Shown here: piece by piece, positions 378-4,056 of the stretch
Layout: each line of letters begins with the position of its first letter
Numbering within the stretch: position 1 is the stretch's first letter
Origin: a virus
Strand: one strand, 5' to 3'
DNA: 37,049 nucleotides
IMG/VR virus record: IMGVR_UViG_3300020428_000036
Coordinates: 1 to 37,049 of that record
The notes under the pieces: generated by a model
Databases searched by the model: none
Told to the model about the DNA's origin: nothing
Seen by the model: the letters and a program-made list of their open reading frames with translations, nothing else
Translations under genes and position numbers: made by a program

Positions 378-442
378 TTTGATTTTCTCCTATAATGGAT
401 TAATTGAAGCTCTTAAAATACAGCATCCGCCATAAATTACCA

Positions 443-460
443 TTACAAAAAGTTAACGTA
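443..460 (+). repeat. 18-bp repeat, copy A
   Basis: The sequence TTACAAAAAGTTAACGTA matches copy B (minus strand, 794-811) at 16 of 18 positions. It sits in the gap between the minus-strand gene 564-773 and the gene pair at 29-377, just before a terminator stem. It is probably a protein-binding site; see copies B, C and D. Confidence 0.55.
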
Positions 461-486
461 AAAAAAAGCCGTCGGGGGGGACGGCT
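460..486 (-). terminator. Rho-independent terminator of the 564-773 gene
   Basis: A perfect 7-bp stem (AGCCGTC at 467-473 with GACGGCT at 480-486) encloses a six-G loop. Read on the minus strand, the stem is followed by a run of eight T, the usual intrinsic terminator form. It lies 78 nt beyond the stop codon of the 564-773 gene and separates it from the two minus-strand genes further left. Confidence 0.8.
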
Positions 487-563
487 AAAAGGGAGTGCCT
501 ATAGGTAGGCAAAGGATAGAAGGGAGATACTATAGCAGGTTCACGCACGATGCAAGCATTAAT

Positions 564-773
564 TCACGCTCTCACGCGGGTTATTTCTTTGAGGTCACGC
601 AGGACATCGTCGGGGGTAATTGTTCGGTCACGCATGGCATTTTCGCCATGAGTAAGGACGTAACAGAATTTCACGAGCGCCGTTAATTCACCCGTATTCA
701 TGTTCAGCATTCTGTTTATATCCTGAACAGACTCACGCTTGCTCATTAATTCATCAAAATCATTGATTACCAT
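564..773 (-). CDS. Small hypothetical protein (69 aa), possible early regulator
   Basis: No family recognised. The 69-residue product is predicted mostly helical with mixed charge and has no membrane segment or metal motif. The start has an AAGGCGG ribosome-binding sequence upstream. The gene is a single-gene unit: a promoter-like pair lies at 805-832, the 18-bp repeat family sits in and around that promoter, and an intrinsic terminator lies downstream at 460-486. A monocistronic gene with its own promoter, operator-like dyad and terminator, divergent from the early + strand genes, is the usual arrangement of a small phage regulator, but no clear helix-turn-helix is visible, so this is inference. 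Confidence 0.6.
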   Translation of the reverse strand: MVINDFDELMSKRESVQDINRMLNMNTGELTALVKFCYVLTHGENAMRDRTITPDDVLRDLKEITRVRA

Positions 774-793
774 AAAAACCGCCTTAATTGTTG

Positions 794-811
794 TACGTTA
801 ACTCATTGTAA
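794..811 (-). repeat. 18-bp repeat, copy B
   Basis: Read on the minus strand this is TTACAATGAGTTAACGTA, 16/18 identical to copy A. Its TACAAT forms the -10 of the leftward promoter-like pair. It is back to back with copy D (2 nt apart), giving a large imperfect palindrome centred at about 812-813. Confidence 0.6.
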
Positions 812-832
812 CATTACGATATTGTAATGCAA
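805..832 (-). promoter_or_regulatory. Sigma70-like promoter for the 564-773 gene with internal dyad
   Basis: On the minus strand TTGCAT (832-827) and TACAAT (810-805, 5 of 6 to consensus) are 16 bp apart and point at the gene starting at 773. The spacer and part of both boxes are occupied by the inverted repeat CATTAC-6-GTAATG (812-829), the classical position for a repressor site. The -35 matches consensus at only three positions, so activity is predicted and not certain. Confidence 0.45.
814..831 (+). repeat. 18-bp repeat, copy D (degenerate)
   Basis: TTACGATATTGTAATGCA shares 14/18 positions with copy C and points away from copy B, from which it is separated by two bases. Together B and D make a two-fold symmetric site. 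Confidence 0.4.
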
Positions 833-965
833 TGCCCCTTGCAATTACTGTATCGCGATCTAAGCGACGATAAAAAAAGGAATAGTAACGTACAGGGGGG
901 GGTCTCTAAAAGCCCGTCACGAGCGTTACAGAGCGTTTTAGATTCTGTCAATACTCTAAACTTAC

Positions 966-987
966 CGTTTCATTACCATTTCATTAC
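966..987 (+). repeat. 11-bp tandem direct repeat in early control region
   Basis: Two consecutive 11-bp units read CGTTTCATTAC and CATTTCATTAC (10/11 identical), followed by a degenerate third unit CATTTGTTCATTA that runs into 18-bp repeat copy C. The recurring CATTAC word also appears at 441-446 and, inverted, at 824-829. Short iterated words like this can be binding sites for a regulator or a replication initiator. Confidence 0.5.
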
Positions 988-993
988 CATTTG

Positions 994-1011
994 TTCATTA
1001 ACTTATCGTAA
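994..1011 (-). repeat. 18-bp repeat, copy C
   Basis: On the minus strand TTACGATAAGTTAATGAA matches copy B at 14 of 18 positions. It lies about 110 nt before the first rightward early gene and just upstream of a TATAAA sequence. Confidence 0.5.
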
Positions 1012-1118
1012 CTAGACATATAAAGGGGTTGTGCGAAAATGTGTATATGGCGGGAGTCTAGCACTTCGCCAGCTCTATAACAACCAAAACTTTATTCACC
1101 TACAAGGGAGATATACCT

Positions 1119-3285: not shown

Positions 3286-4056
3286 ATGAACCAGCTTCAA
3301 TTCATTCAGGGTCTGTCGGTATCCCCCGATGAGACCCTTAAACTTAATTGCCCCTTTTGCGGCGGACGGTCTAAGCTGTACGTCACACGCAGGGACGGTA
3401 AAATCCTCTGGAATTGCTTCAAAGCCACCTGCACCGCTAAAGGCGCTGTTCGGACGGATCGAACCAGTGTAGAGCTGACTAACGCCATACACAATAAACC
3501 AGCCAAGGTAATGTGTAAGAGTGGTATCCCTAACACACTGGTACGGGTGGACTCACGCCCAACGCTGGTTAACTGGTTAGAAGTGTCACACTGCTGGGAT
3601 GCGTATGAGAGAGGCCGCGTAGATATTCAATACTCCCCTGCTGAAGATAGGATTCTGTTCGGCATGAATGACGGGAATGGCTATATAGGCCGCTCAATCA
3701 CCCGAAAGTTACCCAAATGGCGCACCTACGGCGACACTACCGGCTGTTTCGTAGTCCCTACTGACGGAACTCACGCGCACACTGCCGTCTTGGTCGAAGA
3801 TGCCCCCTCAGCTTGTGCGGTTAGCCATAGGTTCACTGGTGTAGCCCTACTCGGCACTAACCTCGACCGTACACAAAAGAATCAGGTAAGAAAGTATAAA
3901 AATATTATCGTAGCCTTAGACAAGGATGCCAGCAAGAAGGGCTTACGACTCTCCCGCCAGCTAGAGGGCTACAGCAATGTCCGTACCAAGTTTCTGGACG
4001 GCCTAGACCTGAAGCACCTTAGCCCAGAGGAGATAGATACCATTTTACTTGACTAA
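3286..4056 (+). CDS. DNA primase with zinc finger and TOPRIM domain
   Basis: A 256-residue primase that would lay RNA primers for lagging-strand synthesis at the phage fork. An N-terminal zinc-binding module has C22, C25, C44 and C49. The C-terminal half has the TOPRIM signature: VLVEDAPSA with E171, then a hydrophobic strand ending ALDKDA with D212 and D214 as metal ligands. In T7 the equivalent zinc and TOPRIM domains are fused to the helicase as gp4; here they are a separate gene 51 nt before the helicase. The middle part includes a GRSITRKLPKW-type segment typical of phage primases. The leader before the ATG is weak (no clear AGGAGG), so low translation is possible. Family assignment is firm; exact priming site unknown. 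Confidence 0.85.
   Translation: MNQLQFIQGLSVSPDETLKLNCPFCGGRSKLYVTRRDGKILWNCFKATCTAKGAVRTDRTSVELTNAIHNKPAKVMCKSGIPNTLVRVDSRPTLVNWLEVSHCWDAYERGRVDIQYSPAEDRILFGMNDGNGYIGRSITRKLPKWRTYGDTTGCFVVPTDGTHAHTAVLVEDAPSACAVSHRFTGVALLGTNLDRTQKNQVRKYKNIIVALDKDASKKGLRLSRQLEGYSNVRTKFLDGLDLKHLSPEEIDTILLD

Follow-up and report, generated by a model that had tools for sequence, protein, structure and literature searches.

Gene context of the early control region

The DNA analyzed here (the "window") is the entire IMG/VR record IMGVR_UViG_3300020428_000036 of 37,049 bp. Because the isolates of the HMO-2011-type group have genomes of 52–55 kb, the record is probably a fragment. The polymerase shares 50–54% identity with its counterparts in the Roseobacter phages CRP-3, CRP-235, CRP-212, and CRP-738 and 38% with that of HMO-2011 (query coverages of 98–99%), and the primase-helicase-polymerase order is the same as in CRP-3. 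By its predicted polymerase and gene order, the phage can be classified as HMO-2011-type.

The genes run leftward from position 773 and rightward from position 1119, and the primase, helicase, and polymerase genes start at 3286, 4108, and about 5600, respectively. The early gene at 1469–1621 (50 aa) has a weak match to phrog_803, a host nuclease inhibitor (E 0.018). A first-pass annotation had described a family of four 18-bp repeats around a small gene at 564–773, i.e. A (443–460, plus strand), B (794–811, minus strand), D (814–831, plus strand), and C (994–1011, minus strand). The positions and strands of the four 18-mers were found exactly as described, and all four indeed lie outside genes, in the intergenic segments 378–563 and 774–1118 that flank this gene. 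The other features of the region are the following:

467–486, minus strand: intrinsic terminator of gene 564–773, with a T-tract that extends up to site A
564–773, minus strand: small early gene (69 aa), with D and B upstream and A downstream; a homologue with 49% identity is present in L003/L004
805–832, minus strand: candidate leftward promoter before gene 564–773 (TTGCAT 832–827, 16 bp, TACAAT 810–805, extended −10; score 9.5)
969–990, plus strand: tandem repeat adjoining C, two perfect copies of the 11-bp sequence TTCATTACCAT, each with a CATTAC half-site

Four sites with one dyad-symmetric pattern

The identities reported for the repeats were reproduced, i.e. 16/18 for A and B and 14/18 each for B and C and for C and D. 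The identity between A and C is also 14/18, and D has 11/18 with A as well as with B. When the intergenic DNA (531 bp) was subjected to 10,000 dinucleotide shuffles, 63 of them contained a pair with at least 16/18 identities, and 4 reached the star score of 30 for A, B, and C together. In most of the intergenic shuffles the best pair had 13 or 14 identities of 18, so that the 14/18 of D, which is about what chance yields, gives D no support in the original frame. Star scores of at least 30 were present in 43 of 2,761 sliding 741-bp windows of related phage DNA, control region among them, and judged by these scores the A-B-C family is uncommon, not extraordinary. Of the proposed four-member family, A, B, and C could thus be upheld in the original frame and D could not; D is a strong and palindromic member once the frame is moved by 2 bp.

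This shift unites all four sites as a dyad-symmetric 18-bp pattern, CRTTAM-N6-KTAAYG, in which the two half-sites are versions of CRTTAM that are inverted relative to each other. In the new frame, the sites are:

Site A, operator-like: 441–458, plus strand, CATTACAAAAAGTTAACG, CATTAC-N6-TTAACG; exact match to the pattern, both half-sites fit CRTTAM; ranks first when held out
Site B, operator-like: 796–813, minus strand, TGTTACAATGAGTTAACG, TGTTAC-N6-TTAACG; one mismatch; ranks first when held out
Site D, operator-like: 812–829, no strand, CATTACGATATTGTAATG, CATTAC-N6-GTAATG; exact match; ranks first when held out; abuts B
Site C, operator-like: 996–1013, minus strand, AGTTACGATAAGTTAATG, AGTTAC-N6-TTAATG; one mismatch; ranks first when held out; upstream of the rightward early genes

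The self-complementarity is 16/18 for D and only 8/18 for A, B, and C, and therefore the symmetry of the latter three rests on the half-sites. The centers of B and D are 16 bp apart, and those of B and C 200 bp.

With up to one mismatch, the pattern has four matches in the 37 kb window, which are exclusively A–D. All of them fall within the 531 bp of intergenic DNA, i.e. 1.4% of the window, and no match at this level lies in coding DNA, where matches as frequent as in the control region would have spoken against the family proposed by the first-pass annotation. Shuffles of the whole window contained a mean of 1.3 matches, and 7 of 100 reached four, a count that is blind to where the matches lie. 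As the four sites themselves were the source of the pattern, tests with held-out sites are important. When a symmetric matrix was built from the other three sites, A, B, C, and D each ranked first in the window, and all four did so at one dyad axis only and at none of the other tested axes. When D was held out, none of 1,500 shuffles with 13 dyad axes reached its margin over the remaining window. A–D are a symmetric, non-random family of sites that is restricted to early intergenic DNA.

An unbiased count of 6-mers, which is independent of the frame, revealed five copies of CATTAC in the control region versus an expected 0.2, with 13 copies elsewhere; two of the five are those of the tandem repeat at 969–990. 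CATTAC is the most enriched 6-mer of the control region apart from the poly-C word, CCCCCC/GGGGGG, which holds the highest enrichment. Runs of seven (474–480) and eight (895–902) G residues are present in the control region, the first of them inside the terminator at 467–486.

Predicted promoters and possible functions of the sites

Promoter candidates were scored with a generic sigma-70 matrix and are predictions only. The candidate at 832–805 on the minus strand has the top score within 378–1118, while 24 candidates with scores of at least 9 exist across the whole window. D lies mostly between the hexamers of this candidate, and B covers its −10. A weaker candidate on the minus strand, 462–434, precedes gene 183–377 and holds A mostly in its spacer. 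C abuts a weak plus-strand candidate at 1013–1040 and overlaps another at 998–1024. Predicted promoters, all of modest score, are thus found across D/B and A and next to C. The asymmetric motif in A, B, and C is oriented without regard to the direction of the genes that these sites precede, which fits operators better than promoters.

We consider it fairly likely that A–D are copies of one 18-bp dyad operator for a dimeric regulator of early transcription. The dyad symmetry, the confinement to the early control region, and the overlap with candidate promoters argue for the original suggestion that the repeats are sites of an early regulator. A dimeric DNA-binding protein would occupy A–D and thereby control early transcription, presumably by repression rather than activation. 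D and B would act on the putative leftward promoter of gene 564–773, A on the next putative leftward promoter, that of gene 183–377, and C together with the neighboring CATTAC half-sites on a putative rightward promoter that serves the early genes and the replication genes. The predicted operators offer a concrete bait to find the regulator.

The first-pass annotation had also named the product of gene 564–773 as a possible binder, and this idea received no support. The 69-aa protein has no family match and no PDB match, its structural model is of low confidence (pLDDT 63), and it is net acidic (charge of about −2 by our own count); it was rejected as a candidate. Homologues were found only in L003/L004 among the viral contigs, and none among phages or genome contigs. 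No helix-turn-helix family was recognized among the early genes scanned, and no cognate helix-turn-helix repressor gene was found beside the sites; the record being a fragment, such a gene may lie in the missing part. Because the genome is incomplete, the regulator may be encoded elsewhere or by the host; the candidates are the missing part of the genome, one of the early genes without an assigned function, and the host.

The control of replication instead of transcription would be another possible role, likewise suggested by the first-pass annotation. A replication initiator would then bind A–D and the CATTAC tandem repeat, and replication would originate in the strand-switch region. Several sites and the 11-bp tandem repeats beside C lie in AT-rich DNA at a divergent gene boundary, with the primase, helicase, and polymerase genes downstream, as could be expected of an origin. 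A, however, is 350 bp off, next to a terminator and a promoter candidate, no gene for an initiator was recognized, and the replication genes found are of the primase/DnaB/PolA type, so that we regard this role as unlikely. The skew change at the strand switch is no independent evidence for an origin, because it follows gene direction. Binding of A–D by a regulator of the presumed alphaproteobacterial host, which the phage exploits or must evade, seems similarly improbable. Symmetric sites of ~18 bp are common for host regulators, and no phage regulator was recognized in the 37 kb; however, no match to a known host motif was found among those considered, as neither CtrA (TTAA-N7-TTAA) nor LexA (GTTC-N7-GTTC) fits A–D.

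It is very unlikely that A, B, and C represent the core sequences of similar promoters with a common origin, in which TTAACT is the −35, and that D is a chance palindrome. When reversed, A points at gene 183–377 and C at gene 1119–1406, and at B and C there are plus-strand candidates that contain TTAACT; yet B would then point away from the gene that it precedes, a common −10 was not seen downstream, and a symmetric matrix derived from only A, B, and C still fits D. The least credible explanation is chance similarity in AT-rich spacer DNA. It could appeal to the equal star scores in the windows of related phages and to the lack of conservation described below, but it is at odds with the shuffle tests, the window-wide ranks of the held-out sites, and the restriction to the control region.

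Related phages and comparable elements

In phage lambda, the OR/OL operators of cI and Cro form a cluster at divergent early promoters. The present sites resemble this arrangement in that several imperfect dyad sites of 17–18 bp, some of them adjacent, lie over candidate divergent early promoters, and in that related dyad sites occur in early intergenic DNA but nowhere else in the 37 kb. In contrast to lambda, no cI- or Cro-like gene was recognized, the sites are spread over 570 bp, and the present phage is not known to be temperate. As no cognate repressor was found, we do not claim membership in the lambda-like operator clusters. The kind of element is ordinary, i.e. a phage switch, and its sequence is its own; we know of no operator with a similar sequence. 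A literature search that combined HMO-2011, promoter, and early genes yielded no open paper.

The sites had been expected to recur in related phages, and this was not borne out. The only relative with a homologous region (L003/L004) lacks the sites, and thus conservation is not shown. L003 contains the homologous small gene and the terminator, but its control region has neither a match to CRTTAM-N6-KTAAYG nor a family of 18-mers above chance. Comparison of 774–1118 with L003 gave no significant alignment, and only the terminator stretch aligns with its counterpart (an alignment as good was obtained in 0.4% of shuffles). This leaves two possibilities, turnover of the operator along with the regulator or sites that are specific to the present phage. 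A search for closer relatives that contain the control region yielded none, and the contigs with close polymerase relatives, L001, L002, L005, and L100, end short of it. The control region of L003 (5014–5317) contains four copies of the word GTAGTT/AACTAC versus 0.39 expected, an excess that is not significant when corrected for the number of words.

Other HMO-2011-type loci contain a different element, TTGACGYSNNAGT, with the consensus TTGACG(Y)(S)NNAGT, which occurs in pairs around a small first gene. It was found in L006, L020, L023, L034, L038, L044, L046, L049, L054, L056, L058, L063, L068, L069, L071, L075, L080, L081, L085, L086, L087, L088, L091, L092, L096, and L120. In the HMO-2011-type loci, all 43 copies of TTGACG-N4-AGT are on the plus (early) strand, and the minus strand has none. 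Two copies of TTGACGYSNNAGT that are 216–300 bp apart bracket the first gene in ten loci (L049, L058, L068, L069, L080, L086, L088, L091, L092, and L120). The second copy is located at the end of the first gene, in several cases directly before an intrinsic terminator. The bracketed genes encode proteins of 57–70 aa that, by eye, are related to gp01 of CRP-3, and those tested had no PHROG match.

A–D share with the TTGACGYSNNAGT pairs that copies flank a small early gene at the same place of the early region, one in front and one beside the terminator. In contrast to A–D, TTGACGYSNNAGT has another sequence, is always on the early strand, and is mostly non-palindromic; it is absent from the window and from L003. 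Judged by analogy alone, it may be a habit of the HMO-2011-type group to flank the first gene with duplicated control sites. A tentative and rather doubtful extension would be that each lineage has its own duplicated early element, TTGACGYSNNAGT in CRP-3-like phages and CRTTAM-N6-KTAAYG in the present one. If true, this would point to a rapidly evolving early switch in a major group of marine phages and to a regulator from an unrecognized family.

Across ~1 Mb of retrieved DNA, the window and L099 were the only sequences with clusters of the pattern, and none were found in other HMO-2011-type loci. Fourteen stretches of viral contigs have one exact A/B-type site each; these were taken as coincidences, because an open frame of at least 61 codons runs over every site and no further copies are clustered with it. 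L099 is an unrelated viral contig from a different phage, itself retrieved with a pattern built from B and D; as one match in the collection it is near chance (about 0.3 by our own estimate). Its positions 301–334 form a tandem double site with the B-D pattern and the same 16-bp spacing, which lies between two genes with products that look helix-turn-helix-like by eye.
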